Assembly: GCA_041879295.1 (NCBI GenBank)
Contig: CP047152.1
Span: 3,725,501-3,789,500, forward strand
Length of the DNA stretch: 64,000 nt
Direction: 5' to 3'
DNA from: Pseudomonas putida
GTDB lineage: Bacteria > Pseudomonadota > Gammaproteobacteria > Pseudomonadales > Pseudomonadaceae
Positions 5,223 to 23,665 of this stretch are shown here, in pieces. A model generated the notes under the pieces. It was not told the origin of the DNA. It saw nothing but the letters and a program-made list of their open reading frames with translations, and did no database searches. Every line of letters begins with the position of its first letter. Position 1 is the stretch's first letter. The position numbers were made by a program, and so were the translations under genes.

Positions 5223-5280
5223 ATCGTCTAGCCCATAGCTATCAGCGAGAAACCGCCCACAGCAGTGATCGTCATAGGCA

Positions 5281-5303: not shown

Positions 5304-5377
5304 TGGGCAGCAGATGACCACCTATCCCAACAAAACTCCCAGCTGTTCAGGTGATCACTTTGGGGAAATAGGGGAGC

Positions 5378-6454: not shown

Positions 6455-6753
6455 TCCAACCCCCTTCGAAACAGTGATGAAGCACATCATTTCAGAAAGC
6501 GGAGCTGAATTCTAACCAAAGCCATACCCAGCTCAGGCGCACTAAGTGGCACTGATCGCAACCGACTGATCAATCCGAATGCATCTGGGTAGTCGAGTCG
6601 AATGCAAGCAGATGGTCAAATGACTACAACTACCCTCCGGTCCTCCTCCCGCATGTCGGTGGCTAGCTCTCGTCAAATCGGCAGCGCTCAACGCGCCTTG
6701 CCGGCGGGGCAAGATAGTTTGTAGCCTACGGGCTCCCTCAACGGAGAAACCTG
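6455..6753. other. Intergenic stretch, no gene seen
   Basis: No convincing coding frame or RNA gene was found in these 299 bases between arsO and the next small gene. They hold the arsO promoter region and, near 6700, a short GC-rich inverted repeat (CTTGCC / GGCAAG). Confidence 0.5.
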
Positions 6754-7029
6754 ATGTCCTCCAGCAACGAAAGCAACACCCCTGCCGAAGGTTCTACCAA
6801 AAAAGACGACTCGCTCCCGATGCTTGAGTTGACGGTGCTCAACCCCAACTTCTCTTTTGACTCAAAGGAGCGGGATGTCGCGGCTGCCCTCAAACGTCTC
6901 CCCAAACTACGCGCTGACCTGCACGCTGACCTCGTTCGACTGATCGATGAGGGCAAGTCGATCGATGAGGCAGTGCGAATCATCAAGCGCAAGATCGATA
7001 GTGAACCCAAAGGGCCAGGCGAGGATTGA
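6754..7029 (+). CDS. Small hypothetical protein (91 aa)
   Basis: 91 residues; the ATG follows GGAG at a good distance (GGAGAAACCTG). The first 25 residues are Ser/Asn/Glu/Lys-rich and probably disordered. The rest is charged and helical, with a repeated pattern of Leu-Arg-Ala-Asp (RLPKLRADLHADLVRLIDEG) and an end rich in Lys. There is no signal peptide or membrane segment. A GC-rich hairpin follows the stop, so it is a single-gene unit. I do not recognise a family; it may be a small nucleic-acid or protein-binding accessory protein of the island. Confidence 0.6.
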   Translation: MSSSNESNTPAEGSTKKDDSLPMLELTVLNPNFSFDSKERDVAAALKRLPKLRADLHADLVRLIDEGKSIDEAVRIIKRKIDSEPKGPGED

Positions 7030-7036
7030 TGCATGC

Positions 7037-7064
7037 GGCCCCGCGTGAAAATTCCCGCGGGGCC
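7037..7064 (+). terminator. Hairpin after the 91-aa gene
   Basis: A perfect 9-bp inverted repeat (GGCCCCGCG / CGCGGGGCC) with a 10-base AT-rich loop starts 8 bases after the stop codon. No long T-run follows. The next 200 bases up to 7280 contain no gene I can support. Confidence 0.6.
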
Positions 7065-7280
7065 ACCTTAGATTACTGAGCCGTGAAAACGAAAAAACTC
7101 ACCAAAACATTGCGATTAGCGTCGCCGTTCGGAGCCCCGCATGATCATGCAAGGTGTGTTGGGTGGACGCTTACGGCCGCTTTTTTTGCCAATCCAAATC
7201 TACTGGCCAGCCGAGCAGTGAATTCTAAATATCGCCTACCAGCTCACAGGCGCGAGCTGGTGATGACTACTCCAGCGTGT

Positions 7281-8993: not shown

Positions 8994-9021
8994 GCCCACT
9001 CCCGCAAGCTAGTTGATGATT

Positions 9022-9930
9022 TCAGGTTTTTGATCGGTAAGCCTGATCGTGCAAAAAGATGATCGCAGATGCAGTCATGTTCATCGTGTACTTCGCCACG
9101 TGCTCCGGCACTACTTTTTGCAACTCCCCGGCACCATGCGACGTGCTCAATTTGTTGCGGAGCGTGCCGACGGTCATCAGTGGCTGCTCCCAGAAAGATT
9201 CCAGCGCAGTCTTCTCCATGATGGTACGAATGAGCTTGGAGGTTGTGTCTCCCTGGGAATACCCGAAACCCTTCTGGCCACAGATCACTTTCATAACACT
9301 CTCATAGCTGCTGTTGCACTTGGTAACGCAGTCGCCGAATTTTCCGTGCCGAAAATCCTCAAGAGCTGCCATGAACTCGGAATTGGCATTAAGGAAAGCT
9401 GGCTGACGTAAAAGCTTCAGGGCGGGCTCAATAGCCGTCTCGTGAACAGCCTGGTTTTCCCTTGGAATAACCTTCGCGTGCTCACGGATTCCGGTGAACT
9501 TAGTGAGTTCTCCCCTATACATTTCCTCAGTGGTTTGCCATACCGGTTTCGTAACGAAATAGGGAAGATCGTCAATGTTCAAGAACTCGTTCAAGCGGTC
9601 AATCACAGGCTCATGGTAACCCCCGATGTAATTCCATCCTTCCTGATGGACAAGATACTCAATGGCATCAAGAAAATGAGGGTCACTGCAGGTGCGCAGA
9701 AAGTTGAATGCGTCATCGGCGTAAGAAAGGTTCTTGTTTCCGGAAAGGTTATGGCGCCCAGTGAGATAGGAGAGCTTATCGTGTAGAAACTCAAGAGTTT
9801 CGCCCATTCCGGGGCCCATGTCTCGGATGAGCATGAACGTCCGTTGCCGAAATTGCTCTGTAAGCTGCTTTTTCGGCTGGCTCTGGTTTCCTTTACGTCG
9901 CGAAAAAACGTTGAAAATATTCCCTATCAC
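9022..9930 (-). CDS. Abi_C-type HEPN protein, possibly STM4504/CBY_0614 family
   Basis: 302 residues, GTG start at 9930 with an AGG-rich site upstream. The N-terminal half carries EQFRQRTFMLIRDMGPGMG and a segment resembling the STM4504/CBY_0614 family. The C-terminal third has TLRNKLSTSHGAG followed by AKYTMNMTASAIIFL, the pattern of the abortive-infection C-terminal domain (Abi_C), a HEPN fold whose Rx4-6H motif (Arg-Asn...His about 258-265) is intact. Abi_C proteins occur in phage abortive infection systems such as AbiJ. It is the first gene of a two-gene minus-strand unit with the 570-residue gene. Role in defence is inferred from family and location. Confidence 0.65.
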   Translation of the reverse strand: MIGNIFNVFSRRKGNQSQPKKQLTEQFRQRTFMLIRDMGPGMGETLEFLHDKLSYLTGRHNLSGNKNLSYADDAFNFLRTCSDPHFLDAIEYLVHQEGWNYIGGYHEPVIDRLNEFLNIDDLPYFVTKPVWQTTEEMYRGELTKFTGIREHAKVIPRENQAVHETAIEPALKLLRQPAFLNANSEFMAALEDFRHGKFGDCVTKCNSSYESVMKVICGQKGFGYSQGDTTSKLIRTIMEKTALESFWEQPLMTVGTLRNKLSTSHGAGELQKVVPEHVAKYTMNMTASAIIFLHDQAYRSKT

Positions 9931-10066
9931 CGCTGTACCCTGCCTCCGTTCAAAGGAACATCATAGACAGGAACGATGCCCGATTGCCATCACAGTGCTT
10001 GGACCGCTGCTGTCGCGAGCCAGCACGATACGGGTGGCTTAAAAAATGAAAACCAAGGAGTCATCG

Positions 10067-10972
10067 ATGCTAGATCGGATCGCGGAATGGAAGCGGGTTT
10101 TTGAGGCCGAAGAGAACGCCATCACTAAGGCGTTGAATCAAATGACGTGGGACATCGCGGCGTATTCATGTGTCGTAGAAATGGTACGCCAAGCTCCCAC
10201 GGTCTGCGGCGAAAAACAGCTGAACGTTTTGATCATGGACATGCTAGCTAGCGGATTCTGGGCAGGAACCATGCAGGGTATCCGTAGACTCGTAGAGGTC
10301 GAACCTATTCGCGGCCCGAGGAGCGTGTGCTCATTAGGTAGCTTAATCGCCGACATCCGCGCCTCGCGTGGAAAGCTCACGCGCCTGGTATACGTCAGGG
10401 ATATCGCTGAGCTGAATTACAATTACCGCAGCACACACGCCGCTTATGACAAATTTGCCACTGAGCAACTCCAGCAGGGAAAGCGATCGTACTGGGTGCC
10501 CACGAAATATCACTATGAGCTCGCGGTTAAGCGGCACGAGGAGTTTGACTGGCTAAGCGGGGTGAGCGCAGGTGCATCCAGACCGGATGATCTGATACGG
10601 ATCGAGGTATTCGACATGTTGGAGTCCCGCCTAGGCCGGCTATCTTCCGTCATTGAACATGTGAACGTGGACATCGCACACGCTGCAACTGAGGCTAGTC
10701 GGCAAGGGCGCATATTAGAGCGGTGGGGCCTGGCAGATGCCAAGCAAGCTTTGCGTGAAATTGCAGAAATTGCTCAGGTGGTGGGCTCCTGGTTCTGCTA
10801 CAGCGGCGCTGGCACTGTTTTGCCCTTCGCCGAGTTCGATCAGTTCGCTCATTTGGACAGCCCTCTTTTTCAAGGTGACCGCGCCAAGCTGCAGGAGATA
10901 TGGACGGACTTTGATCGTGAAGCACAATCATGGCATCTGGTCGATCCCACAGAGTGGATGCAGAGCCAATAG
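10067..10972 (+). CDS. AbiU2-like HEPN-domain hypothetical protein
   Basis: 301 residues. The ATG at 10067 has an ideal AAGGAG six bases upstream, which lies inside the alternative reading from the ATG at 10046, so the later start is chosen. The protein is all-helical with no membrane segment. It contains HVNVDIAHA (about residue 210), like the RN/H-N...IAH motif of AbiU2-type HEPN proteins, and a Trp/Arg-rich middle. It starts 136 bases from the oppositely transcribed Abi_C gene, so the two units share a divergent promoter region. Family assignment is tentative; function unknown, with a defence role plausible. Confidence 0.5.
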   Translation: MLDRIAEWKRVFEAEENAITKALNQMTWDIAAYSCVVEMVRQAPTVCGEKQLNVLIMDMLASGFWAGTMQGIRRLVEVEPIRGPRSVCSLGSLIADIRASRGKLTRLVYVRDIAELNYNYRSTHAAYDKFATEQLQQGKRSYWVPTKYHYELAVKRHEEFDWLSGVSAGASRPDDLIRIEVFDMLESRLGRLSSVIEHVNVDIAHAATEASRQGRILERWGLADAKQALREIAEIAQVVGSWFCYSGAGTVLPFAEFDQFAHLDSPLFQGDRAKLQEIWTDFDREAQSWHLVDPTEWMQSQ

Positions 10973-11126
10973 CCAACACAGAAGAATCAGAAAAGCCATT
11001 GGCCAACCTCGCTCAGATATCCAGCCCCTGCAGGTCCTCGCAAAGACTGTCGACCTCGACGCTCGCTAGCTCATTACGCACAGCTTTGCCAAAGCAACGG
11101 ATGATCAATTGGCCCGATCAGGGCCC

Positions 11127-11531
11127 TCATGCGTCCTTTGCGCCATATCCTGCATGGCATTTGGGGCATTCCCACTGACCGACAAATCGAAATTCGCTGG
11201 CCAGGTCGGTCAAGCGCATCTTGCGCTCATCGCTGTCCCAGCAAGCAGTGCAGAAGCGACCGACTTCGCCTTCAAAGGTATAAACCCCCTCAGAGTTGTA
11301 GGTGGGTTTACCTTTGTCTCGCTGCTCAATCACCTGCTTGAGCCTGACTATCTCCTCTTGCGCCAATGCTAATTTTATCTTCAATTCCCCAGACTCAAGC
11401 TTCGCATCAGCCAAGGCGCTGTGAAGATCCGCCAGTATCATTTTGAAGTCCGCATCTTCGAGCTTTTTCGAGAGGTCTCGCAGCTTCCCTGACGCTTCAA
11501 GCGCCTGCTGAATCAGTGCCATCAAATCCAT
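11127..11531 (-). CDS. Coiled-coil protein with C-terminal zinc ribbon
   Basis: 134 residues. Residues about 1-75 are a long charged helix predicted to form a coiled coil (Leu/Ala/Glu/Lys repeats). The end has two CxxC pairs, FCTACWD and ECPKCHAGYG, spaced about 30 residues, giving a four-cysteine zinc ribbon. The start has AAGGCGG upstream. Similar small zinc-ribbon proteins are scattered in Pseudomonas accessory DNA with no assigned role. It converges on the AbiU2-like gene. It could be a DNA-binding or scaffold protein; nothing in the sequence decides this. Confidence 0.65.
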   Translation of the reverse strand: MDLMALIQQALEASGKLRDLSKKLEDADFKMILADLHSALADAKLESGELKIKLALAQEEIVRLKQVIEQRDKGKPTYNSEGVYTFEGEVGRFCTACWDSDERKMRLTDLASEFRFVGQWECPKCHAGYGAKDA

Positions 11532-11722
11532 AGAAATACACCGCCTTGCTTAGTGGTATCGGTTGAGCGCATACAGTTGACAGATTGTAGGTGTGAAAGC
11601 GAAAAGGGTCGGACTTTTAGCCGCTCAGCCAGCCTGTGCTGGAGGCCTCACCTGATGGCGATCTTGACCACCATCACCGTACCGGCGGAAACTCATCGGC
11701 GACTTCAACCTTGGAGCTGATT

Positions 11723-12280
11723 ATGGATGAGCATCGCGACCCGCCTGTACGACTCGACTATTTCCGCTTAGTCAAACGCCTCAACGAACATCTAGCCAGC
11801 CTTGGTCAGGAGCGCATAGATGAGGACATGCAGGAAGCATGGGCCGGGTACTTCCAGGAAATAGCCATCACTCAGGACGAAATCGACATTATCGGTCCTT
11901 GGTACATTAAGCATTACTCCATAGGTCTCTCGATTCCTTCGCTACGTCAGTACGTGGAGCATCTTCGTAGACACTCCACCTTGCCAGACCAGCGTATCAC
12001 TGGCGGAACCGAAAGCGATGCGGTCACCATCCTCGAAGCATGCGCAGCACTGGGACTCGATCGATACCGACTTTCCGACGCGCTTTTCCAGGCTGCCGCA
12101 TTGGTTCATCACGCGGCCTATCGTGTGGATCTTCCAAACATTGATCCAGAAGATATCCGGCAGGAGATAGAGAGCCGCGCACGGCTCGCAGACTACTTCT
12201 CTCGTGACATTCTTAATGAGGCCCAGAACGGTGTCGGGGCCGCAGCCAAGCTGGGAAGAACGCTTTTTCCACGTCATTGA
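11723..12280 (+). CDS. Hypothetical protein (185 aa)
   Basis: 185 residues from the ATG at 11723, preceded by TTGGAG at good spacing; the frame is open further left to 11636, but that part is low-complexity and unlikely to be translated. The protein is acidic and helical with no signal peptide, membrane segment or cysteine motif. I do not recognise the family. It is followed by a small gene on the same strand after 48 bases, so the two may be co-transcribed. Confidence 0.55.
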   Translation: MDEHRDPPVRLDYFRLVKRLNEHLASLGQERIDEDMQEAWAGYFQEIAITQDEIDIIGPWYIKHYSIGLSIPSLRQYVEHLRRHSTLPDQRITGGTESDAVTILEACAALGLDRYRLSDALFQAAALVHHAAYRVDLPNIDPEDIRQEIESRARLADYFSRDILNEAQNGVGAAAKLGRTLFPRH

Positions 12281-12328
12281 GCATCATTTGATGCCCCCAT
12301 GGTGATGCGCCAGGGCAGGAGGAACAAC

Positions 12329-12559
12329 TTGAGTACCACTCGCGATTTAAGCAAGCCCCTACTAGTGATCGATGGTCCCGACCAAGGCGACTGGCGCGCT
12401 TGGCCGAAAGACTCTTTTGTTTCTGTGACGGTGTGGGATAGCAAACGAGTCAGCGAGCAGCCACCGCCGGTCACTTACCGTCTGCGTCACCATGCCTGCC
12501 AAGGTCTGGTGTGGGCCAGTGAAGATGGGCAGGACCTGAGCGATCCGGCTCAATCTTGA
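12329..12559 (+). CDS. Small hypothetical protein (76 aa), TTG start
   Basis: 76 residues if translation starts at the TTG at 12329, which has a perfect AGGAGG six bases upstream. An ATG at 12299 in the same frame has no such site. It contains PLLVIDGPDQGDWRAWPKDSF and a Trp/His-rich end. No domain is recognised. It sits 48 bases after the 185-residue gene and before a receptor remnant on the other strand. Confidence 0.5.
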   Translation: MSTTRDLSKPLLVIDGPDQGDWRAWPKDSFVSVTVWDSKRVSEQPPPVTYRLRHHACQGLVWASEDGQDLSDPAQS

Positions 12560-12588
12560 GTGCTAGCAATAACCGGAGTGATGCGTAG

Positions 12589-12720
12589 TCAGAAACGGTA
12601 ATCGACCCCAAGGCTAGCGCTGCGGGGAGCCCCTGGGTAGTTGGAGTTGTCGCTGCTAGCTTTGGCAGATACGAAGTACTCTCGATTCCACGGTTTGTCG
12701 CCGCTCACATCGTAATCCTG
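12589..12720 (-). pseudogene. C-terminal remnant of a TonB-dependent receptor
   Basis: Reading the minus strand down to the TGA at 12589-12591 gives about 43 codons ending YPGAPRSASLGVDYRF then stop. This Arg-Ser-x-x-Leu-Gly-x-x-Tyr-Arg-Phe ending is the last beta strand of TonB-dependent siderophore receptors. The frame before it (KPWNREYFVSAKASSD) also fits such barrels. No upstream part is present, so this is a leftover from an earlier gene broken by insertion or deletion in the island. Confidence 0.6.
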
Positions 12721-12721
12721 A

Positions 12722-12931
12722 CCGCAGTATCCACCTGCCAAAGCGGCTGTCGTATTCGAACCGGTCGATACCTTCGAAACTCGTCGTAGGGAGGCTCGCC
12801 TTTGGGACCTTCATCTGCCGCCGGAGGCAGTGGGATGCGGCATCCGAGCCAAAACACTCGCGGTTGATCGGAAAAACAAGCGTCGTAAGCTGAGTGCCGC
12901 ATACTGCTATCTGCGCTTTGAAAATCCCTGA
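12722..12931 (+). other. Open frame without start, possible gene remnant
   Basis: The plus strand is open for about 69 codons up to the TGA at 12929 and has protein-like composition (DTFETRRREARLW, LAVDRKNKRRKLSAAYCYLR), but no ATG or GTG with a ribosome site. I do not recognise the family. It may be the 3' end of a gene cut by the same event that left the receptor remnant next to it. No intact gene is seen between 12560 and 12986. Confidence 0.3.
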
Positions 12932-12986
12932 TGGATTCCAGCCCTCTGTGATGCTGCGGTCTGTAGCCCCTTAGCTGGAGGTGCTT

Positions 12987-13649
12987 ATGAGCACTCCCTT
13001 TGCGCGCATCCAATCTAGGTGCAAGCCTGCCGCTGCATCGGACACGACTGACAACAAGGTAGCCTTGATTGCCACCTTGTCGATTGAGGCCAATTCAGAC
13101 CGTACGATCGATGCGTACCTCGGCGGGCTGCAGATGTACAACGACCTTTTCGAGTGGAGGCTAAACGAATATCCCAAAAAAGCGCTCGACTTCATTATCG
13201 ACTGCTTCCTCCCCGCAGAATCGGTACCCCAATCGATTTTGGAGAAAGGCGTTTCTGCAGGCAGAATCCGCTCTAAGCTTTTCCAAACCGGAGACTGGAT
13301 ATCAGCCAAGCAGTGGATTTATCTGGCATCGTCCTCCAACCCTGGCGTCGAGATAGACCCTGATGAGTTGTTGGCCAATGGGAAGATTTTTTCTCTAAGA
13401 CCGGGTAAGGTTGATTTTTTCCCTACATACGGCTTAGACGGTCGCAATGGATACCAACCGATCCACATCCTTTGCGATGTGTTGTCGGTGCTATCTGCCC
13501 GGATGAACGCCTGGTCAATCGCAGTATGGTTCCAGTCCGAAAATAGTTCTCTCGGCGGTGTCGCGCCGAAAGTATTGCTGGCGTTCGCACCAGACAAGGT
13601 CCTGGCGGCGGCAAAGGGCAAACCTAGACGGAATCGTGTGAGCAGATAA
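12987..13649 (+). CDS. Protein with C-terminal MbcA/ParS/Xre antitoxin-like (DUF2384-like) domain
   Basis: 220 residues from the ATG at 12987, placed five bases after GGAGG (a GTG at 12981 overlaps that site). The C-terminal third holds ARMNAWSIAVWFQSENSSLGG then APKVLLAFAPDKVLAAA, the pattern of the toxin-binding domain of Xre/MbcA/ParS antitoxins (Trp-x-x-Ala-x-Trp-Leu/Phe ... Leu-Gly-Gly ... Pro ... Leu-Leu). The middle contains FFPTYGLDGRNGYQP, which is common in Pseudomonas members of this group. No RES-domain toxin lies next to it. Likely an orphan antitoxin-like regulator. Confidence 0.6.
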   Translation: MSTPFARIQSRCKPAAASDTTDNKVALIATLSIEANSDRTIDAYLGGLQMYNDLFEWRLNEYPKKALDFIIDCFLPAESVPQSILEKGVSAGRIRSKLFQTGDWISAKQWIYLASSSNPGVEIDPDELLANGKIFSLRPGKVDFFPTYGLDGRNGYQPIHILCDVLSVLSARMNAWSIAVWFQSENSSLGGVAPKVLLAFAPDKVLAAAKGKPRRNRVSR

Positions 13650-13801
13650 TTGTATTCAGATCCCGTGTAAGGGTTTAAAACGTGTCTCGACCCGGTGTCC
13701 GTGGCCGACGATGTTTTTGAGGGCGCTCTGCCATATGCGTATGCGACGCTCGGCGCCTGAAGCACTATACAACTGCCGAATGGCACTTGAAGGAATATAA
13801 G

Positions 13802-14098
13802 ATGAGCAGCAAACAAGCACCTCCGAGGCACCACATTCAACGACCTCTCTTCCGCGATTGCTATTCGACAGTAATCAGGGCAGTTGACGCCCGCTATGAC
13901 GTACGCGGCTATTTGCTGGCGGAACTTGTGAAGCTATGCTTAAAGAATCGAGCGACAATCCCGCCTGCCAGACGCCGTTACTACGAATGCAATGTTCAGG
14001 AGCAAGCCATAACTTATTTGGAGCAATGTACGAGTCGTCTACTATTTGGCCCTAATGGACGATTCTCGCCCGACGAGTACCGATACAGCCAATATTGA
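13802..14098 (+). CDS. Small hypothetical protein (98 aa)
   Basis: 98 residues, ATG at 13802 behind GAAGGA. It is basic (many Arg) and contains YDVRGYLLAELVKLCLKNR and PPARRRYYECNVQEQAI. No signal peptide or known domain. It lies 152 bases after the antitoxin-like gene on the same strand. Basic charge would fit a nucleic-acid-binding protein, but this is only a guess. Confidence 0.5.
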   Translation: MSSKQAPPRHHIQRPLFRDCYSTVIRAVDARYDVRGYLLAELVKLCLKNRATIPPARRRYYECNVQEQAITYLEQCTSRLLFGPNGRFSPDEYRYSQY

Positions 14099-14208
14099 TG
14101 TTCTTGAGGGTTCAGCTCAAGCGTGATTATTGACCCAATACCAATTTAACCATCAAAAAAATCACTACCGGAACCGCCGCGTCTGGATTGAGAACATGAC
14201 ACATCCAG

Positions 14209-14475
14209 TTACCAGTACACGCCATATTCGATTCGTAGTAAAAAATCCACTACTTGTTCGAAGCCAGAATGACTAACAAGCAACGCACAAGGTGAATTCC
14301 AGCCAAGGCCTAACGCCCGATCAGACATCCAACGCGTCGCAAGGGCTCGCCGTCCGAACACTCGTTGCGCCACAGATAAAATCCAAGCTTTTCGCCATTC
14401 GTAATAGCGCTGATCAGCGGACCAACATCCCAATTGAGCAGCCTCGTTAGGGCCGATGAGGCGAGCCGGTACCAT
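14209..14475 (-). CDS. Small MbcA/ParS/Xre antitoxin-like protein
   Basis: 88 residues from the ATG at 14475 with GAGGAG eight bases upstream; the open frame extends to 14520 but without a better site. The second half matches the DUF2384 toxin-binding domain: RRALATRWMSDRALGLG, then CALLVSHSGFEQVVDFLLRI and a final YGVYW. The usual partner is a RES-domain NAD-degrading toxin, which is absent from the neighbourhood. It is transcribed against its neighbours. Either an orphan antitoxin or the survivor of a lost toxin-antitoxin pair. Confidence 0.6.
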   Translation of the reverse strand: MVPARLIGPNEAAQLGCWSADQRYYEWRKAWILSVAQRVFGRRALATRWMSDRALGLGWNSPCALLVSHSGFEQVVDFLLRIEYGVYW

Positions 14476-14518
14476 TGTCAAAGCTCCTCTAGGCCAGGCC
14501 AAAAACCATAGGAGCAGC

Positions 14519-14647
14519 ATGTTAACTCAGATAAGTCTGGAGCCAGAAGCCTGGAGCGAATGTCACCTTGAGGGTATTTTTCAAGAGATCAAGCAGGCGG
14601 AGGATTACATCAACCGATCGATTTACCCTGACCAGCTTGCATCCTAG
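14519..14647 (+). CDS. Very small hypothetical protein (42 aa)
   Basis: 42 residues from the ATG at 14519, five bases after AGGAG. It is acidic, helical and ends tail-to-tail with the HTH controller gene, overlapping its stop by four bases. No family is recognised. The good ribosome site is the only positive evidence beyond the frame itself. Confidence 0.4.
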   Translation: MLTQISLEPEAWSECHLEGIFQEIKQAEDYINRSIYPDQLAS

Positions 14648-14883
14648 CCGCACAGGTCTGTGGGCAGAAGCGATTGCGGGGTACATCTCAGCTCGGTCGC
14701 TATCCGATAGAGCTTCTCAATAGTCAGATTCACCTCCCCTCTCTCTATACGCCCTATGTAGCTCCGATCCATCTGGCAGGCGAAAGCTAAAGCGTCTTGC
14801 GAAATCCCAACCATCACTCTCTGCTCTCGGACTTTGCGTCCTAGAGCCCTCGCCAACTTTTGCATATCCGCCTCGGTGTACAT
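14644..14883 (-). CDS. XRE-family HTH controller-type regulator
   Basis: 79 residues, almost entirely one helix-turn-helix domain: LGRKVREQRVMVGISQDALA (helices 1-2), MDRSYIGRIERGEVNLTI (recognition helix region), ending in PQSLLPTDL. Size and layout match SinR-like and restriction-modification controller (C) proteins. It is divergent from the 189-residue/helicase unit, with 84 bases between starts that contain a perfect palindrome over a -10 box. Inferred role: repressor or timer of that unit and of itself. Confidence 0.85.
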   Translation of the reverse strand: MYTEADMQKLARALGRKVREQRVMVGISQDALAFACQMDRSYIGRIERGEVNLTIEKLYRIATELRCTPQSLLPTDLCG

Positions 14884-14920
14884 AAGGCGGGACTATCAGC
14901 GTTTGCGGGTTGATCGGCGA

Positions 14921-14934
14921 CGGATTATAATCCG
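14921..14934. promoter_or_regulatory. Palindromic operator overlapping a -10 box
   Basis: A perfect 14-bp palindrome CGGATTATAATCCG lies between the divergent HTH gene and the 189-residue gene. Its centre is TATAAT at 14926-14931, and the same hexamer is read on the other strand. This is a natural site for the HTH dimer to block RNA polymerase. A -35-like TTTGCG lies 18 bases upstream on the plus strand. Confidence 0.55.
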
Positions 14935-14967
14935 CATTTGATGTATTTCTGCTAGCTAGGTGCCTGT

Positions 14968-15537
14968 ATGAAACCGGCTTCATTCGCTCTCGACAGGCAC
15001 GTCTATGAGCTTCTACAAAGCGGCGAGCTAGACAGCTTTACCTGTCGCGGCCTTCGAGACGCCTATGCCCGGTCATATGGCGTAGCGCGCGAGCATACTT
15101 CTGATCTCCGGCGCTATATTTTTAGGCAGATCCTCCGCCTCGAAAGGATCGAATGGGTCGTACGAGACCCAGAAAAGCGCGGCCGCGACCAGCTCTATCA
15201 CCTCCAGGATCTACCACCTTCAGTCAACCTCCGCTTGATTGACGAGGGGTATCAATTCTTCGCCCCTCGCGCCGAGCTACCTGCGGACGACACCGAAAAA
15301 GGTGCCTCGACCAACGAGCACACAGCTCGACGTCTCCAGGCAATGGTCAAAGAAACCCGATTGGACTTCCTCACCTCAATGGGCGAAGCGGAAAGGTACA
15401 AGCAACTGTTGGAAGACCTGCCACACCTCCACTCGAAGCTGGAAAGCGACTACGTGGAAGCGAGAGATCGTAGCTCCCGCCTGCTAGGTCACCTCAAAGC
15501 GGTCGAAAAAACCCTAAAAATACTAGGTATTGAATGA
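14968..15537 (+). CDS. Hypothetical protein co-transcribed with a helicase (189 aa)
   Basis: 189 residues. The first 80 (YELLQSGELDSFTCRGLRDAY, then RRYIFRQILRLERIEWVVRD) look like a winged-helix DNA-binding fold. The last 80 are a charged coiled-coil helix (ERYKQLLEDLPHLHSKLESDY). Its stop overlaps the helicase start as ATGA, so the two proteins are made together and probably work together. It could load or regulate the helicase. I do not recognise a named family. Confidence 0.7.
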   Translation: MKPASFALDRHVYELLQSGELDSFTCRGLRDAYARSYGVAREHTSDLRRYIFRQILRLERIEWVVRDPEKRGRDQLYHLQDLPPSVNLRLIDEGYQFFAPRAELPADDTEKGASTNEHTARRLQAMVKETRLDFLTSMGEAERYKQLLEDLPHLHSKLESDYVEARDRSSRLLGHLKAVEKTLKILGIE

Positions 15538-16922
15538 GCAGTGTTCTAAGAGAGTGGCAGACCTCATGTATCGAGAAAGCACTACGACACTTTCAGGTAA
15601 ATAGGCATTTCTTTTGCCAAGCAACGCCAGGAGCAGGCAAGACGAGAATGGCTGGCGAATTGGCAAAAGAGCTGCTCAAAAAAAATGTTATCGATCTTGT
15701 GTTGTGCTTCGCGCCGTCCTGCCAAGTAGTCGATGGTTTCAGGGCTACGTTCTCAAAAATACTTGGGCGTCGAATGGACGGATATGTGGGAGCAATTGGT
15801 GATGCTTCTACTTACCAAGGCATGGATACGAAAGGTGAGGAATTTTGGGACCTATTTGAACAGTATCGGATATTAGCGATATTTGACGAAATTCATCACT
15901 GCGCGGGTTATGACCTTCAATCCAGCAACACTTGGGGAGCGACAATTATATCCAAAATACAAAATCAAGCGACATTCACTTTGTCTTTGTCGGGCACGCC
16001 TTGGAGAACAGATGATAAAGCCATTGCACTTGGACGCTACTCAGCGCCTGCTGGAGCGTTGGCCCGTGATTATCACTATGGACTTCAACAGGCTATTGAC
16101 GACAAGATTTGTAGATCCCCGAGAATAACCTTAGTTGACAACCACAACCTACAGTTAACCCAAAAAAACCAACAGAGCCGACTAACATCTAATTACGACA
16201 GCTTCGCCCATTTACTTGAAAGCTCACCGCTTTGCTTTGAAGACATTCTATGGAATGAAGACGTAATAGATCATATTCTCGACCTAGGCTGTCGAAAACT
16301 ATCTGAAATCAGGAAAGGAAACCCATCTGCTGCTGGACTTATCGTTGCATCTGACACTAATCACGCTAAGTTAATCGAGAGTAAGCTCAAACGCCGCGGC
16401 GAAAACTGTCGCGTGGCTACGTCGAAAACTGGTAGCGCTCAAGATAAAATCAACGAGTTTAGATCTGGGATTGGTTGCTGGATTGTTGCGGTAGGCATGA
16501 TTAGCGAGGGCACTGACATTCCTCGCTTACAAGTATGCTGTTACCTGAGTCGCATTCGCACAGAACTGCACTATCGTCAGGTCTTGGGCAGAATTCTCAG
16601 ACGAACAGGGGTCAACGATGATCAAGCTTGGTTATTTGTGGTAGCCGAACCTTCACTTATAGAATACTCGCGACGGCTCTCTGATGATCTGCCTCAAGAC
16701 CTGGCTGTTATCAGCATGCAGACTGTACCGCGACCCCAGGAGAAAGAAGCTTTAACAGGCGGAGAAAACAAAGGTATCGACACCTGGCCGATCCTCACAG
16801 CCGATACTGGCCGCCCCTCCAAAGTGGATTACCTTGAATCTGCTCCAAATTCGCACTCATCAACGAGCTACGAATTGAGCGTATCGTCACAGTTTCGAGC
16901 CGAACTGTTAGAAATCTCATAG
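15534..16922 (+). CDS. Superfamily 2 DEAD/DEAH-type helicase
   Basis: 462 residues. Motif I is ATPGAGKT at 30-37, motif II is DEIH at 118-121, motif III is SLSGTPWRTD (about 153-162), and motif VI is QVLGRILRRTG near 360; motif V reads GMISEGTDIPRL. The set is complete, so ATPase activity is expected. There is no attached nuclease or methylase domain; it resembles the stand-alone helicases related to type I/III restriction and RecG-like repair enzymes. It overlaps the upstream gene by ATGA and ends 168 bases before gmtY, with AT-rich DNA between. Confidence 0.85.
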   Translation: MSSVLREWQTSCIEKALRHFQVNRHFFCQATPGAGKTRMAGELAKELLKKNVIDLVLCFAPSCQVVDGFRATFSKILGRRMDGYVGAIGDASTYQGMDTKGEEFWDLFEQYRILAIFDEIHHCAGYDLQSSNTWGATIISKIQNQATFTLSLSGTPWRTDDKAIALGRYSAPAGALARDYHYGLQQAIDDKICRSPRITLVDNHNLQLTQKNQQSRLTSNYDSFAHLLESSPLCFEDILWNEDVIDHILDLGCRKLSEIRKGNPSAAGLIVASDTNHAKLIESKLKRRGENCRVATSKTGSAQDKINEFRSGIGCWIVAVGMISEGTDIPRLQVCCYLSRIRTELHYRQVLGRILRRTGVNDDQAWLFVVAEPSLIEYSRRLSDDLPQDLAVISMQTVPRPQEKEALTGGENKGIDTWPILTADTGRPSKVDYLESAPNSHSSTSYELSVSSQFRAELLEIS

Positions 16923-17090
16923 ACTTAGATTAGAGCGAGCCTTAAAACTAGCCAGACTACACAATTGCGCATACCAAGAACTAGTCTAGACTATGAGTGC
17001 AGCTCTGCGAACATCGGTTTGCAATAAGCTTTTGAAAACCTAGATACAAAACCTGCTTACGATCCTAACGATACTTGCCAGGTAATTGCG

Positions 17091-18446
17091 ATGGCTTACA
17101 TCATAAAGATTAAAGCACGCTACCAAAACGATCAAACCGGCCGTACCATTAAGCTCCCTGCTTTATGGACCGAAAGCGGCGTATTAGTATCACACCTTCG
17201 CTACCTGGCTGACAACAGCAAGAAGAGCTCATCCTGGAAAGAGAAGTCCACACAAGCCGTTAAGCTACTAATAGAGTATATTAATGCCAATGTGGGATTA
17301 TTTAAGAAAACAACAAAACTTCTCGCATCATTTGCAAGAGCTTTAGAAGAGGGCACCGTAGATCCAAGAACATTAAAAGACCCCTCGCAACTCTTTTGGC
17401 TACCAAAATCTAGCGAACACTGCTCAGACCTCCTGTTCCTAATAACAGACTATACCGACTGGCTAAGCCGTCAAAGTGACTTTAAAATAAAGCTCGCCAA
17501 TCCTTTCAGACAAGCCACCTCTACGGAGCAGCGGATGAACTGGTGCGCCTTCCACAATAAACGAAACAGAGTCTTTTTGAATCACCTTGTGGACCCGGAC
17601 AAACACGTCGAAGCGTTAAGCACCATTCGCGAAGTAACAGGACCACAGCGCCCCACCGAAAACATTGCACCCGCGAAAAGATTTCCTGAAGACAAAATTG
17701 ATCTCTTGATGAAAGCGGGATTTATTATTCTGAACACCAAGAAGTCCGACATGCCGCGCCCTGACTACAAGGGCCAGGCATTAACGCTGCTCATGCACTA
17801 CGGAGGCTTGCGCAAATCTGAAGCACTGCACCTTTACTTGTCAGATATCATTCTAGACGAGAAAAAAAACGAGGCCATTGTAAGGGTCTATCATCCGTCT
17901 AACGGAAAGTCACCTGACGAGCAATACCCTACCAGAAAGCAATTTTTAGCAATACATTACGGGCTATTGCCCCGAACTGAATACCTGAAAACAGAACGGC
18001 TGCATTTAGGGTGGAAAAACCCAGTACTTGACAACAAAGATGGTTACTTTTCAGTTCAGTTCTTCCCACCCCATAAAGCCGCAGAGTTCTTGAGTGTATG
18101 GATTAAGTATCTTAAAGAACAGCGCACCGACCCAGATTCATCACACGACCACCCTTATGCATTCACCAATTCAAAGGGAGAGCCTGAAACTCTAAAAAAC
18201 GCCCAACGCCTACATAAGTCGGCTGTGGAGCGAATTGGCCTACTGCACCGAAAATTAGTTGGCACAAGCGAGCACGGGCATCGGCACAGCTATGGATACA
18301 GGCTTCGAGAAAATGGATTCAATCAAATTGAAATCCAAAAGTGCATGCACCATAGAAGCCCCGATTCATGCTTAGTTTATATTCAGCCGACACATGAAGA
18401 GATACGACAAAAAATGTCAATAATCGATAAAAGCAGCCTACACTAA
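17091..18446 (+). CDS. gmtY: Gamma-mobile-trio tyrosine recombinase GmtY
   Basis: 451 residues. The tyrosine-recombinase catalytic set is complete: Arg241 in HYGGLRKSEALHL, His395-x-x-Arg398 in EHGHRHSYGYRL, His420/421 in KCMHHRSPDS and Tyr430 in CLVYIQP. The N-terminal 200 residues form the core-binding part (helical, Lys-rich). It is the first gene of the trio, 33 bases before gmtZ. Name rests on length, order with gmtZ and gmtX, and family memory. It would cut and join DNA at the island ends. Codons are AT-rich compared with the core genes to the right. Confidence 0.8.
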   Translation: MAYIIKIKARYQNDQTGRTIKLPALWTESGVLVSHLRYLADNSKKSSSWKEKSTQAVKLLIEYINANVGLFKKTTKLLASFARALEEGTVDPRTLKDPSQLFWLPKSSEHCSDLLFLITDYTDWLSRQSDFKIKLANPFRQATSTEQRMNWCAFHNKRNRVFLNHLVDPDKHVEALSTIREVTGPQRPTENIAPAKRFPEDKIDLLMKAGFIILNTKKSDMPRPDYKGQALTLLMHYGGLRKSEALHLYLSDIILDEKKNEAIVRVYHPSNGKSPDEQYPTRKQFLAIHYGLLPRTEYLKTERLHLGWKNPVLDNKDGYFSVQFFPPHKAAEFLSVWIKYLKEQRTDPDSSHDHPYAFTNSKGEPETLKNAQRLHKSAVERIGLLHRKLVGTSEHGHRHSYGYRLRENGFNQIEIQKCMHHRSPDSCLVYIQPTHEEIRQKMSIIDKSSLH

Positions 18447-18479
18447 ATCATTATTTCTGCGGACTCAAGGTGAGGCTCC

Positions 18480-21400
18480 ATGCCAGAAAAAATAAAATAC
18501 GCAACCTTACTCGAAGTTAAAGCCGCAGTTAGAAAGCTTGGTATAAAAAATAGCAGAGCCTACAGACTTCGCTGGCAAGAAGATCCTAGGCTACCGGCCA
18601 ACCCTTATATTGATTACGCCAGCGAATGGCTCTCATGGTACGACCTCTGTGGTAGTGAAAGGCCAATTGAGAAATATCTGACGCTTGCAGAGGCACGTGA
18701 GGCCGTAGCTCGCCTAGGTATATGGACAGTGGCCCACTATTCAACTGATCACCATAAAGACCCAAAGCTCCCAGGCGACTTGCGCTTTTACCCGAACTTT
18801 AAAGGGTGGCCAGAGTTTATTGGCAAAAGCATATATAAAGATTTCTATAAAACACTCAGCGAAGCTAGTAGAGCAGCGCTTGCGCTCGGCATCAATAGCT
18901 ACCACCAATACACTACGCTAAAAAGATACAAAGCAGACCCAAAACTGCCTGCAAACCCTAGCACCATCTATCCAGACTGGCAGAATTGGAAGCATTTTTT
19001 CGGAACAAATCATTTAGTCCCAGTTTATGAAAGTTATGAACTGGCCTCTGCAGCCGCTATATCCTTAGGAATCCAACACTCAAGTGAGTATTTCACTCGC
19101 CGAGAGGAAGACCCGAAATTACCTATTCACCCCCAGACCCGCTACAAAGAGCGATGGGAGGGCTGGGTAAATTTCCTCCATCCTGGTAAAACTAGGAAAG
19201 TTTACGAGACCTTTGAACAGGCTAGAGCTGCAGCCCGCAACCTGAATTGCAAGTCACGAACAGATTACTACACAAAATTTAAAGAAGACTGGCGTCTGCG
19301 CAGAGATCCAACAAGTGTTTATACGGATCAATGGACGTCATGGAAGGACTATTTAGACCTAACAGTACAATATGAAACGCTACATGAAGTGCGCATAGCT
19401 GCACAGAGATTAGGCATCAGCACAAAGCGACAGTATGAATTAAATTACCACAACGACCCGCGCCTTCCAAGCAACCCGGAACAATTCAAAAATGAATGGA
19501 AGTCGTGGATTCACTTTTTCTTACCCATTGCTTACGACTGCCTTGACGACATTAGAATAGCAGTAACTCGACTCGATATAAAAGACAGTCAGGATTACCG
19601 CAACCGCTATAAACTCTACCCTCCATTACCCGCCCACCCTGAACGGGTATTCCGAGACGAATGGAAAAGCTGGTATGACTTATGCTCTATCAGAACGTTT
19701 TACACTTTCGATGAAACAGTAAAACTAATTCAGCCTCTTAATCTTAACTCCTTACGAGAATATAGAAAACATGTGAAGTCCTCAGGAGACAATAGATTAC
19801 CGTACACTCCGGACAAAGTATATTACAGAGACTGGACCACCTCGTATGCGTTTCTCGGAAAGACGGAGCCATTTTCAGAAAGCTCGATAGATGCTGACCA
19901 TTCGAAGTGGCTGGAGGATTTAAATAGCTTCATGAAAGAAGCTCGTGGCGGACGGGGAAAACAGCTAGCAATCTGCCGTTTTTTGGCAACTTACGTGCAG
20001 CCAAACGCATACGGAACCACACCAGGAGAATTCCTCTCAAACAAGTCTATAGAATTACAACATTTCAAAAACTATGTAACCTCCACAACCCCAGAATATC
20101 TTAGACGAAGCTTCGTCATGGCCATAAACGAATTCATGCGATTCATTATCCGCGAGCAATTCACGCTTGAGGATGACGAGACTGGTGAATTGATAATCGC
20201 AGACGGAATAAGCAACCCATTACGCGGCAGCGAAACAGAATACTCAGGCACGACAAGCAGTAGCGGCCCTGGCGAAACATCTAAACCAGCTTTGGCCTAT
20301 CAATATGTTGCAGCCCTGCAAAAATGGATAGTTCCAGATACTGCAACCAGCTTCTCTGACTTAACCCACCTCCATAATTTCGACGCTGACTGGGTAGAGA
20401 TCGATCTAAATAATTTCAAATTGGATAACAGCGATCCTGATCTCATTACACGCTGGATTGGAGGAAAGTTTAAAGCATGGTTTCCAATGTATTGGATGCA
20501 GGTACTCACCCTAGTTTCGGTCCCCTCCAGAGGTAGACAAATTGCATACTGCGACTCAGGGGAAGGCGATGAGTACATCCCAATTCATAATGACTGCAAG
20601 GTTTTCTGGGCTAAAAATGAAGGTCCGCTTTCAGGCATAACAAAAAATCAAGGCTTCATAAAACGATATCCTGGCGATCAATGCGGAATGTTTGTTACTA
20701 GCAACAAGACCAGTATTGGGTATAGCGGCTACAGTGTGCCATGGATACCCCCTCATTTGCTCCCATGGATAATTAAGCTCCGTCAGTGGCAGGCAAAATA
20801 TAACCCAATAATTCGCCCTATGCCATGGATTGAATGTATTCGCACCAACCTGAATGAAAGCCAGCGTCATGCCAAAGGTGCTAATTGCTTCTTGTTTCGT
20901 CTCTTCGGGGCTGAAGAACCTGGATCCCCAACAAATATACTAACCCCTCGACTCGCAGCCGCACTTTATTACTCACAACCTCGGGACTTACCATTAGCCA
21001 CGCTGACAGGCCCCAGAGAGAAACTAAGTTGCTATTCGTCTATTTATACTCCACACAGCATGAGGGTAAGCCTTATCACGGCATACGTCCATGAGTTTGG
21101 GCTACCCATTGAAATCACCATGAAGATTGCTGGGCACAGTTCAATCGTGATGAATTTGTACTATGTAAAAATCGGAGGAATTGAATTACAACGTCGATTT
21201 TCAGAAGGTGAGAAGCGCGCGCTTCAGAATCAAGTATTTGTTGCACAGAGCATGATCGAACAGGGCAGAATCGATCAAATCCAAGGGCAATTAGTCGCAA
21301 ACAACCAAGATGCCCTCGAGCTGATATATAGGCAAAAATCTCCGGGCAGCTATTTATTTCGAGACTACGGCTTTTGCCCATATGCAGGTGCTAGGTGTGA

Positions 21401-22232
21401 TGACGGAGGATCGCTCGGTAAAGGTGATATTTGGTTGCCGGTGCCAGGCGGGTATCTAGGCAGTCAGAACTGCATAAGATGTCGCCACTTCGTAACCGGC
21501 CCTGCATTCATAGGTGGCCTGCTAGCTCTAGGTAATGAAATATCGCTAGAAGTAAATCTTCAATTCACAAAATACGACGAACTCCAAGCCAAAGCTGAAG
21601 AGTTAAGATCCGAAATTGACAGTCGGGATGAGCGAGAGTATGAATTAAGCAAGTACGGAAAAGACATTGAAGCCCGAGACCTAAGTCTAGAGGCTAAGCA
21701 TCGAAAACTGCTAGCCGAAGCTGAGAGTGCAGCTAAAAAACTTGATGTATTGATTTGTGATGTGCAGGCTAGCGCAAGCCTAATAAAGCAAATCGAGCAG
21801 GCTACCCTTACAAAATCCAAGTCCGAGCCTCAAGACTCACTCATGCTTATTGTGCAAGAGGGTCATGAGCTTAGGCTCGCGCTAGAAGAAACCACTCACT
21901 TTCATCAGTTAAGCGAGGTATGTGAAAATGCCGAGATATATGAATGCGCTTCTGCCCACTCTGCCTTGGCCGCAAGATCCCAGCTGTTGGACAAAATGCT
22001 TGAAGACAATAATTCCCCGCAGCGAATGTTCAGGCTAAATAAGGAGCAGCAGCTTTTAGTTGGCAATCAGATCGCAAGACTCTTGATATCACGACTCAGA
22101 AGCTGGGAACGTATCGACTCACTAATTGAAGGGAAATTCAGGCTGGCCGAACTGGTTGGACTTGAGAGCATCTCTCTTAAAGAAATCAGCGATGCCTTTA
22201 TAAATAACGCAAGAAACTTGCCTCAGGTTTAA
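18480..22232 (+). CDS. gmtZ: Gamma-mobile-trio integrase GmtZ (integrase-repeat and tyrosine-recombinase domains)
   Basis: 1250 residues. Residues about 1-465 are some eight repeats of roughly 55-60 residues, each with an Ala-x-x-Leu-Gly-Ile core, Asp-Pro-x-Leu-Pro, and Trp-x-x-Trp-x-x-Phe/Leu (phage-integrase repeats). A recombinase domain follows: VPSRGRQIAYCD (Arg684/686), HSMR (His859, Arg862), AGHSS (His886) and Tyr894/895 in NLYYVK. Cysteines CPYAGARCDDGG and NCIRCRHF (about 966-1000) form a probable zinc site. The last 240 residues are coiled coil. A ribosome site AAGGTGAGG precedes the ATG. Acts with GmtY in integration and excision. Confidence 0.8.
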   Translation: MPEKIKYATLLEVKAAVRKLGIKNSRAYRLRWQEDPRLPANPYIDYASEWLSWYDLCGSERPIEKYLTLAEAREAVARLGIWTVAHYSTDHHKDPKLPGDLRFYPNFKGWPEFIGKSIYKDFYKTLSEASRAALALGINSYHQYTTLKRYKADPKLPANPSTIYPDWQNWKHFFGTNHLVPVYESYELASAAAISLGIQHSSEYFTRREEDPKLPIHPQTRYKERWEGWVNFLHPGKTRKVYETFEQARAAARNLNCKSRTDYYTKFKEDWRLRRDPTSVYTDQWTSWKDYLDLTVQYETLHEVRIAAQRLGISTKRQYELNYHNDPRLPSNPEQFKNEWKSWIHFFLPIAYDCLDDIRIAVTRLDIKDSQDYRNRYKLYPPLPAHPERVFRDEWKSWYDLCSIRTFYTFDETVKLIQPLNLNSLREYRKHVKSSGDNRLPYTPDKVYYRDWTTSYAFLGKTEPFSESSIDADHSKWLEDLNSFMKEARGGRGKQLAICRFLATYVQPNAYGTTPGEFLSNKSIELQHFKNYVTSTTPEYLRRSFVMAINEFMRFIIREQFTLEDDETGELIIADGISNPLRGSETEYSGTTSSSGPGETSKPALAYQYVAALQKWIVPDTATSFSDLTHLHNFDADWVEIDLNNFKLDNSDPDLITRWIGGKFKAWFPMYWMQVLTLVSVPSRGRQIAYCDSGEGDEYIPIHNDCKVFWAKNEGPLSGITKNQGFIKRYPGDQCGMFVTSNKTSIGYSGYSVPWIPPHLLPWIIKLRQWQAKYNPIIRPMPWIECIRTNLNESQRHAKGANCFLFRLFGAEEPGSPTNILTPRLAAALYYSQPRDLPLATLTGPREKLSCYSSIYTPHSMRVSLITAYVHEFGLPIEITMKIAGHSSIVMNLYYVKIGGIELQRRFSEGEKRALQNQVFVAQSMIEQGRIDQIQGQLVANNQDALELIYRQKSPGSYLFRDYGFCPYAGARCDDGGSLGKGDIWLPVPGGYLGSQNCIRCRHFVTGPAFIGGLLALGNEISLEVNLQFTKYDELQAKAEELRSEIDSRDEREYELSKYGKDIEARDLSLEAKHRKLLAEAESAAKKLDVLICDVQASASLIKQIEQATLTKSKSEPQDSLMLIVQEGHELRLALEETTHFHQLSEVCENAEIYECASAHSALAARSQLLDKMLEDNNSPQRMFRLNKEQQLLVGNQIARLLISRLRSWERIDSLIEGKFRLAELVGLESISLKEISDAFINNARNLPQV

Positions 22233-22236
22233 AATC

Positions 22237-22827
22237 ATGACGCCATCTGAAACCCTGAGTAAACTAAAGAAAAATTGCAGCTTAAAAAAACAGCATACTC
22301 TGGACGCAGTGTACGAGGTATGCAATGAGATGCTATCGAACGGCGAAAAGAACTTTTCATTTTCAGCCATTGCACGCCTAGGCATTGATTGTGGAGTACC
22401 AAACGCTCAAAGCATGCGAAATAGTTCGGGCCAAGCATATCGCGTGCTAATACAGGCATTCAAAGAGGCGGCAGGTCCGGCCCACCATGACCGAGCACCG
22501 TCAGATTGGATAGACGCGATAAAAGATGGTAAGGCTAAATTTTTGGCGCGAGCCCAAGAGGCTGAGAATCATCGCCTCCGAAGACTGCTGAGAGAAATTA
22601 CGCCGCCCAATCTCGAAATCCGGGTTGATGATCGCACTCCGTTTTCATCCGAGAATAAATTATCAGAAATAGAACGCAGAGCTCTTTTGTATTTAATGTC
22701 AGAAGAGTTCAGGCTACAATGGGGCTGCACACTGGGCAAGCACGGCGACTTGATTGACAAGAAGGGAGCAAAGGTGTTTCGCCCAGGAACCCTTGATGCA
22801 ATACAGAAGGCTCTCAGGGCATTGTGA
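22237..22827 (+). CDS. gmtX: Gamma-mobile-trio protein GmtX
   Basis: 196 residues, 4 bases after the gmtZ stop, so certainly in the same operon. It begins with helices (SETLSKLKKNCSLKKQHTLDAV) and a segment NFSFSAIARLGIDCGVPNAQSMR that looks like a helix-turn-helix, then an Arg/Glu-rich linker, and ends EFRLQWGCTLGKHGDLIDKKG. Position and size fit the third member of the trio, whose job is not established. DNA binding near the recombination ends is a reasonable guess. Confidence 0.75.
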   Translation: MTPSETLSKLKKNCSLKKQHTLDAVYEVCNEMLSNGEKNFSFSAIARLGIDCGVPNAQSMRNSSGQAYRVLIQAFKEAAGPAHHDRAPSDWIDAIKDGKAKFLARAQEAENHRLRRLLREITPPNLEIRVDDRTPFSSENKLSEIERRALLYLMSEEFRLQWGCTLGKHGDLIDKKGAKVFRPGTLDAIQKALRAL

Positions 22828-22856
22828 CCGCTCTTTGAATTAAAAACAGGCATAAA

Positions 22857-23360
22857 ATGGCTACCAATCTCATTACTGAAGCTGGCTATCAGTCCTTGAA
22901 AGATGAACTAGATTGGCTCTGGCGCGAAGAGCGACCGGAGATTACCAGAAAAGTCACTTGGGCTGCGTCTTTGGGCGACAGAAGTGAAAATGCTGACTAC
23001 CAGTACAATAAAAAGAGGCTAAGGGAAATAGATCGGCGCGTAAGATACCTCCGTAAGCGTATCGAAGACCTTCGGGTAGTCCCTTATTCCCCTACTCAGG
23101 AAGGCAAGGTATTTTTTGGAGCTTGGGTAACTATTGCCAACGAGGATGATACAAGCAAGAAATTCCGCATTGTAGGTGCTGATGAAATTTACGATAGGAA
23201 AGACTTCATCTCAATTGATTCCCCGATGGCACGCGCATGCATTGGCAAGTGTGCAGGTGATGAGATTGTTGTTCGGACTCCAACTGGCGATGCCTACTGG
23301 GAAGTCACCGAAATTGAGTACAGGGAGGCGGAAGACGCACCCCGGTTCATTAAACCCTGA
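22857..23360 (+). CDS. greB: Island-borne transcription elongation factor GreB
   Basis: 167 residues, full length for GreB. The N-terminal coiled-coil hairpin carries the conserved acidic tip SLGDRSENADYQYNKKR (about 39-55), and the C-terminal FKBP-like domain has GAWVTIANEDD and IGKCAGDEIVVRTPTGDAYWEV. GreB stimulates transcript cleavage in backtracked RNA polymerase. Its codons are AT-richer than the core and the protein differs clearly from the 47 resident greB codons 150 bases away, so it came with the island. It lies 29 bases after gmtX. It probably replaces the resident gene that the insertion broke. Confidence 0.9.
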   Translation: MATNLITEAGYQSLKDELDWLWREERPEITRKVTWAASLGDRSENADYQYNKKRLREIDRRVRYLRKRIEDLRVVPYSPTQEGKVFFGAWVTIANEDDTSKKFRIVGADEIYDRKDFISIDSPMARACIGKCAGDEIVVRTPTGDAYWEVTEIEYREAEDAPRFIKP

Positions 23361-23417
23361 GGTGCCTCCAAATCGGCCACCACTATGTCAAAACCAGCTA
23401 CAGTGATGGCCGACAAT

Positions 23418-23489
23418 GAATAGTACGACGCAAAAGTACAGTACTATTCCGAAAAACCAGCAAAATCAATGTGTAAGACCAAATAGTAC
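23418..23489. repeat. Short repeats at the island right end (putative recombinase sites)
   Basis: AATAGTAC occurs at 23419-23426 and 23482-23489, and its reverse complement GTACTATT at 23441-23448. The first two form a 9-bp inverted repeat (GAATAGTAC / GTACTATTC) with a 14-base spacer. They lie in the non-coding strip between the island greB and the junction at about 23513. Inverted arms near an end are what a tyrosine recombinase would bind. Confidence 0.5.
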
Positions 23490-23654
23490 ACGAGCTTGGG
23501 GTTCTTCCTTCCAGTCCGCGTTCTCGCTGCGGTCACCCAACGACGCCGCCCAGGCAACCTTTTGGGTGATTTCCGGGCGATACACCCGCCACAGGTGGTC
23601 CAGCTCTTTCTTCAGCGCCTCATGGCCTTCTGTGGTGATGATATTGGTGCTCAA
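23466..23654 (-). pseudogene. 5' fragment of resident greB, truncated by the island
   Basis: From the TTG at 23654 (GAGGA eight bases upstream) the frame gives 47 normal GreB codons ending GDRSENAD, then runs into unrelated DNA (WKEEPQARVLFGLTH, stop at 23466). The switch falls after AACGCGGACT, at about 23513, exactly where an intact greB continues with a Tyr-Gln-Tyr-Asn segment. The remaining 110 or so codons should sit at the far end of the island, left of the window. The short product would lack most of the coiled coil and all of the C-terminal domain, so it cannot work. Confidence 0.85.
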
Positions 23655-23665
23655 TAGCGCATTCC

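Follow-up and report, generated by a model that had tools for sequence, protein, structure and literature searches.

How does a mobile element come to lie inside a conserved core gene of Pseudomonas putida, and why does it carry a complete copy of that same gene? The gene is greB, and the element is of the Gamma-Mobile-Trio (GMT) type (Mahata et al. 2024, as cited in PMC12715929). By the window we mean the whole stretch of DNA that was analysed, 64,000 nucleotides in length (GCA_041879295.1, contig CP047152.1; G000:C1:3725501-3789500 in our numbering). The features that bear on the question are the following, with coordinates given in the window unless stated otherwise.

C1:3712502-3749007 (window -12998 to 23507; in-window part 1..23507), no strand assigned: GMT element of 36,506 bp, both ends located
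263..4884, + strand: cargo, CusB/CusA-type metal efflux genes (PF16576, PF11604, PF00873)
5378..6490, - strand: cargo, ArsO-type flavin monooxygenase (NF040505, 578.9 bits, cut-off 425)
15534..16922, + strand: helicase-like gene upstream of gmtY (PF04851 and PF00271)
17091..18446, + strand: gmtY, tyrosine recombinase (NF040693, 508.7 bits, cut-off 340)
18480..22232, + strand: gmtZ, GmtZ integrase (NF047926, 643 bits, cut-off 600)
22237..22827, + strand: gmtX (NF040692, 173.7 bits, cut-off 40)
22857..23360, + strand: carried complete greB, 167 aa, 29 bases past gmtX (TIGR01461, 245.6 bits, cut-off 171.05)
23482..23507, - strand: right terminal motif GAAGAACCCC-n9-TACTATT; the left end, TTAGGGCCCC-n11-TACTATT, is similar
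23508..23513, - strand: 6-bp scar TGGAAG (CTTCCA on the + strand), equal to the native 6-bp target of a megaplasmid gene
23514..23654, - strand: resident greB codons 1-47, TTG start, ending in GDRSENAD
from G000:C1:3712501 downward, - strand: resident greB codons 48-162 (115 codons, locus L009), outside the window to its left

The initial annotation, made from the sequence of the window, held that the resident greB is cut after codon 47 and runs into island DNA. This is indeed the case: beyond GDRSENAD the frame reads WKEEPQARVLFGLTH, 15 codons in all, to a stop. The missing 3' half was expected to the left of window base 1, beginning with Tyr-Gln-Tyr-Asn, and this is where it was located. In the greB search of the G000 genome it matches at C1:3712172-3712507 and opens with YQYNKK. 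The two halves are separated by 36.5 kb, and the cut falls exactly between codons 47 and 48. It lies within the N-terminal domain of GreB (residues 5-74), three codons past Glu44, which together with Asp41 we take to be the catalytic pair. As the break is inside this domain, neither half amounts to a whole GreB, and the insertion should abolish the function of the resident gene. GreB is probably not essential. An intact resident greB elsewhere, with the split gene as old debris, had been considered as the case against this reading; no second intact resident greB was found in the G000 genome, and the remaining Gre-like matches are two, each of 35% identity.

A complete greB behind gmtX, on the strand opposite to the fragment, had likewise been noted and is confirmed by a TIGR01461 match above the family cut-off. 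The carried GreB is full-length: the two domains are present, as is the acidic GDRSEN loop (TIGR01461, PF03449, PF01272). Its alignment with E. coli GreB (2p4v) spans residues 1-156, and it retains GDRSENADYQYNKKR. A promoter scan of positions 22200-23800 returned no site on the + strand, which is weak evidence, as such scans are; the carried greB may thus rely on the gmt operon for its transcription.

The element has a GC content of 55.1%, versus 61.7% in the part of the window to its right. That part includes a cluster of four tRNA genes, two of which are tRNA-His genes (42353-42428 and 42602-42677). The left end, TTAGGGCCCC, adjoins TACCAG of greB. The right ends of other greB-inserted copies are similar to that of the window but variable. 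Both Pseudomonas plasmid copies described below have an annotated helicase gene at the equivalent position, upstream of gmtY. Of two neighbouring cargo genes on the - strand (7281-9930), the second has a DUF7014/Abi_C domain and matches AbiJ weakly; together they form a possible defence pair. Another GmtY that passes the family cut-off is encoded in the G000 genome (C1:2322296-2323564, L071); it is accompanied by gmtZ and gmtX matches and falls on a different GmtY branch, and no greB match was found in the 11.8-kb stretch around it.

To what extent does the arrangement recur? GmtY scored above its cut-off in 29 of 398 Pseudomonas genomes, a sample of the larger genus with one genome per species, versus 0 of 14 control genomes. 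Searched for greB at E<=1e-29, the same 398 genomes gave two matches in 11 cases, one in 385 and none in two, the latter being 77-78% complete. Ten of the 11 genomes with a second match carry a greB split by a GMT element, and the remaining one (G359) has a single frameshifted greB. In this G359 gene (C1:6749878-6750344) the frame seems to shift around codon 85; GmtY has no match there, and the gene may represent an error or a pseudogene.

With both junctions read, greB is broken at the matching base by a GMT element in all 12 greB-split copies, each from a different genome. Eleven are in Pseudomonas and one (G511) is in another gammaproteobacterial family; G511 was met in a sample drawn across the class, where 4 of 369 genomes matched the window GmtY at E<=1e-25, namely the window genome, G511, G716 and G766. 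The break always separates the codon matching Asp47 (GAC, GAT or GAA) from the next, a Tyr codon. The 6 bp of the target read TACCAG in eight copies, TATCAG in two (G272, G511) and TACACC in two (G239, G274). The copies share one orientation except for that of G146, which is reversed. All 12 islands contain a full-length greB (ten genomes together with G398 and G511). In nine copies a single contig holds both resident halves with the carried greB between them; the halves of G398, G342 and G146 fall on separate contigs, and there the carried greB is found near gmt or near the 5' half. G716 has a full greB beside a partial gmtY in a broken assembly and is excluded from the 12. A tiny contig of this genome (G716:C399, L139) holds a greB fragment that lacks some N-terminal codons and is joined to bases resembling a GMT left end, due to either a deletion or a misassembly. 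G766 has one full greB-like copy, on a contig apart from its GmtY match.

These data lead us to consider it likely that one fixed greB site serves a clade of GMT elements for chromosomal insertion, and that the carried GreB replaces the broken one. The crossover would occur at the 6 bp of greB codons 48-49, immediately past the GDRSEN loop. Insertion cuts greB in its N-terminal domain, and the scars conform to a rule by which the 6 bp of the target stay at the left and 6 bp from the donor arrive at the right. The carried GreB would stand in for the broken protein, so that the cell retains GreB, and the element would thereby be able to occupy a highly conserved site in a core gene.

A comparison with other GMT islands, looking for a greB next to gmtX, had also been proposed. 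All 12 greB-inserted islands do carry the gene, though not always in that position, and its distance from gmtX bears on a different explanation, in which the carried GreB serves the element by acting on transcription of the element's own genes or by shifting host transcription, and breakage of the resident gene removes a competitor. The greB gene follows gmtX by 29 bases in the window and by 7 in Halomonas, as though it were part of a mobility operon, and Rapa et al., writing on Vibrio, propose that disruption of the resident gene avoids a harmful mixing of two RecA proteins (PMC4405046). In other members, however, greB lies about 250-510 bp or tens of kb past gmtX, and the origins of the carried genes set out below fit replacement better than one specialised variant. 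We therefore regard a role in the service of the element as unlikely.

A tree of GmtY (37 rows, which are not independent; midpoint root; G766, G146 and G031 on long branches) places the greB-associated elements together. In one group of 17 rows (100/100), 15 have a carried greB: 12 are inserted in greB and carry greB as cargo, and three, from a P. aeruginosa plasmid, a Halomonas plasmid and G716, have cargo greB only. The remaining two rows (G353 and G235) are without greB; neither a second nor a broken greB was found in these genomes, and a search for the element ends did not find them. No greB was found near the 20 rows that fall outside this group, three of these loci being short at contig ends (L050, L052, L057), and the 17 Pseudomonas genomes among the outside rows have a single greB match each. 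When labels were shuffled on this tree, 43 of 500 shuffles were as low as the observed value, a comparison that covers the two labelled groups only and not the rows without greB. The proposal that the element targets a conserved part of greB and brings a replacement is thus supported by the 12 copies and by phylogeny, with the replacing function predicted from conservation and recurrence.

Outside the group, chromosomal GMTs were examined for greB alone. In seven out-of-group plasmid GMTs (among 147 records with a GmtY match), no obvious housekeeping gene was found behind gmtX; this survey used annotation from incomplete PLSDB tables, and one locus had no listed gmtX. A search of the phage collection with GmtY gave no match.

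The same distribution speaks to the notion that the carried greB is a functionless passenger whose match to the target is coincidental, or the remnant of a previous capture of greB. Plasmid copies that carry greB while inserted elsewhere would agree with it. A passenger would, however, hardly be expected in every one of the greB-inserted islands and near none of the 20 out-of-group GmtY rows, and no second greB is seen in the group members that occupy other sites (G353, G235). Low dN/dS values argue in the same direction, with 0.02-0.06 in five pairs of carried greBs of the same type. The value for the pair of G000 and the plasmid is 0.19, from near-identical sequences with very few changes, and the G342/G259 pair is saturated. 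We consider a mere passenger very improbable and favour replacement.

Where do the carried genes come from? In a tree of 62 GreB rows labelled as carried or resident, the best topology requires four changes between the two states, and well-supported branches force at least two. A single origin of the carried greB was considered and is not supported, as at least two changes are needed. The carried rows cluster more than they do under label shuffling, where 1 of 500 runs was as low. The window type forms a separate clade of 24 rows (100/99). A looser group (94/88) unites the carried greBs of G342, G065, G259 and G031 and also takes in two host-named proteins. For the carried greB of G239 the partner is the resident greB of G031 (99/85) and for that of G274 it is P0065, a protein named P. 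fluorescens (96/89), whereas that of G146 falls among residents with weak support. Placement of Halomonas, G511 and G716, all on long branches, is unsure. Since there are several groups of carried greBs, some of them among host greBs, greB has been gained or exchanged on more than one occasion. The constant presence of the carried gene, its conservation and its repeated acquisition all point to compensation for the broken copy, and its conservation and recurrence suggest that it is expressed and able to replace the resident gene.

The halves of the split resident genes remain open frames, which suggests that the greB insertions are not very old. Self-immunity through a recoded target in the carried greB was also considered and is not supported: across 11 genome pairs the mismatch is 0.25 near the site versus 0.35 further off, and at third codon positions 0.53 near the target versus 0.65 further off. 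In this comparison the carried greB of G000 was substituted for that of G398, and six unknown bases in G146 were scored as mismatches.

The junctions also hold a record of movement. At each insertion the left end adjoins the target's own 6 bp, and the right end is followed by six variable bases, the scar. The scar reads TGGAAG in G000, G398, G272 and G190, TACGCG in G259, CTCGCT in G065 and G342, TGGCGC in G031, TGGGAG in G239, TACAAG in G274, TGCAAA in the reversed copy of G146 and TATCAG in G511. A source could be identified for five of the 12 scars, namely a plasmid site in four and greB in one (G511).

The plasmid site was recognised from two Pseudomonas megaplasmids that hold the gmtX-greB segment at 98.8% identity, with a GmtY protein 99.1% identical to that of the window. 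Their copies sit in a hypothetical gene instead of greB; sequence was read across the right junction in both megaplasmids and across the left in NZ_CP132351 only. The initial proposal of greB as the target therefore stands as far as the common site in 12 copies is concerned, but the element is not confined to it. Read from an island-free plasmid, the empty site is GACGGAG-TGGAAG-TTGGCAAC. A 401-bp query spanning it matched 125 plasmid records, 116 of them over at least 80% of its length, and among eight more distant homologs of the plasmid gene TGGAAG is found at the site in seven and TGGAAA in one. The scar of the plasmid copies is TATCAG, the greB sequence as at G272 and G511. The scars are thus reciprocal: that of the window equals the native plasmid site, and that of the plasmids equals greB. 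A given 6-mer would match by chance at about 1/4,096, and here both directions match. This reciprocity suggests that the window lineage hops between greB and one Pseudomonas megaplasmid gene, and megaplasmids may serve as the vehicle of the element. The latter idea is weakened by plasmid typing. MOB-suite assigned 23 of the 107 records with the plasmid flank as conjugative and 84 as non-mobilizable, and both insert-bearing megaplasmids are of the non-mobilizable type. In NZ_CP084414.1, near 89452 (L144), an out-of-group GMT lies beside a truncated plasmid gene of the same family, cut about 40 codons earlier.

Could the 12 copies descend from one ancient insertion, inherited or spread via homologous recombination of the whole greB locus? 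Some close pairs do have the same scar, such as CTCGCT in G065 and G342. Yet scars differ among the copies, one copy is reversed, one occurs in another family, and the resident halves are of various host greB types, among them a divergent one with Y-T-Y in place of Y-Q-Y. We give this scenario the least credence of all and prefer repeated insertion at the fixed site, with replacement by the carried gene.

How does the element compare with known systems? It resembles GMT islands in GmtY, GmtZ and GmtX, all above their NCBIfam cut-offs, and in its mixed cargo; it differs from GMT islands generally in the greB target and the carried greB, which in the sampled genomes are limited to one GmtY group. 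The RME of Vibrio cholerae and V. parahaemolyticus likewise has a single insertion point within a core gene, of which it brings a full but diverged copy (PMC4405046, PMC4334540). There, target and carried gene are recA rather than greB, and the recombinases are annotated as phage integrase and XerS. For the V. cholerae RME, both orientations and a circular form have been shown (PMC4405046, PMC4334540). SE elements (PMC10214605) and Tn554 follow the same 6-bp rule, with target bases at the left, donor bases at the right and a circle with a 6-bp spacer. The SE core, described as intA-tfp-intB-srap, would set these elements apart (PMC10214605). Tn552-II of Staphylococcus, related to Tn554, also carries a gene resembling its target, for which a rescue role was suggested only, and brought att bases along when it moved from the chromosome to a plasmid; its target is YolD-like, its att is 7 bp and its genes are tnpABC (PMC12486829).

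The literature searched, the founding GMT paper (doi 10.1038/s41564-024-01840-5) aside, contained no report of greB as an insertion target or of a GMT with a replacement greB; greB has no occurrence in the main text of Idola et al. on SE (PMC10214605) and none in that of PMC5088629. The view that the scheme is undescribed for GMT elements holds within these bounds, but the recA islands, and Tn552-II as a suggestion, are precedents outside GMT, so the break-and-replace scheme is not categorically new. As far as our searches show, what appears to be new is that greB is the target, that the scheme is linked to a GMT clade, that greB was acquired repeatedly and that the scars between greB and the megaplasmid are reciprocal.

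The GMT/greB junctions conform to the 6-bp brought-in rule of SE elements, for which copy-out movement has been argued (PMC10214605). For the recA element, an empty site was regenerated, seen as a faint PCR product (PMC4405046). If movement is by copy-out, the resident greB would not be restored in the donor and the carried copy would be the only remedy there. The carried GreB would then be the only GreB of the cell, and loss of the island would cost the host its GreB. It is conceivable, as was initially suggested, that the island sits in greB without cost and that its loss would be harmful. More tentatively, and as less likely than not, we envisage the core-gene site as a safe harbour that binds the host to the element, with island greBs taking the place of the vertically inherited gene and 6-bp scars logging the hops between greB and megaplasmid. 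A mobile element can evidently land, across species, in a part of a core gene that is highly conserved, and the data suggest that the replacement for the broken target has been renewed repeatedly within one recombinase clade. In practical terms, 6-bp scars can reveal the replicon that delivered an island, and island copies can mislead greB phylogenies and annotations.

A free form of the element was encountered among plasmid records. In Halomonas sp. THAF12, pTHAF12_b (NZ_CP045401.1, L142/L146) is a circle of 47,894 bp that is identical throughout to the island in pTHAF12_a, and its joint carries 6 bp, GGTGTA. The PLSDB table, which is incomplete, lists no replication gene on it. It is probably the circular form of the element, the alternative being an assembly artefact. 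A 23.9-kb circular Pseudoalteromonas ‘plasmid’ with gmtY and gmtX (NZ_CP118497.1, L156) may be another such form.
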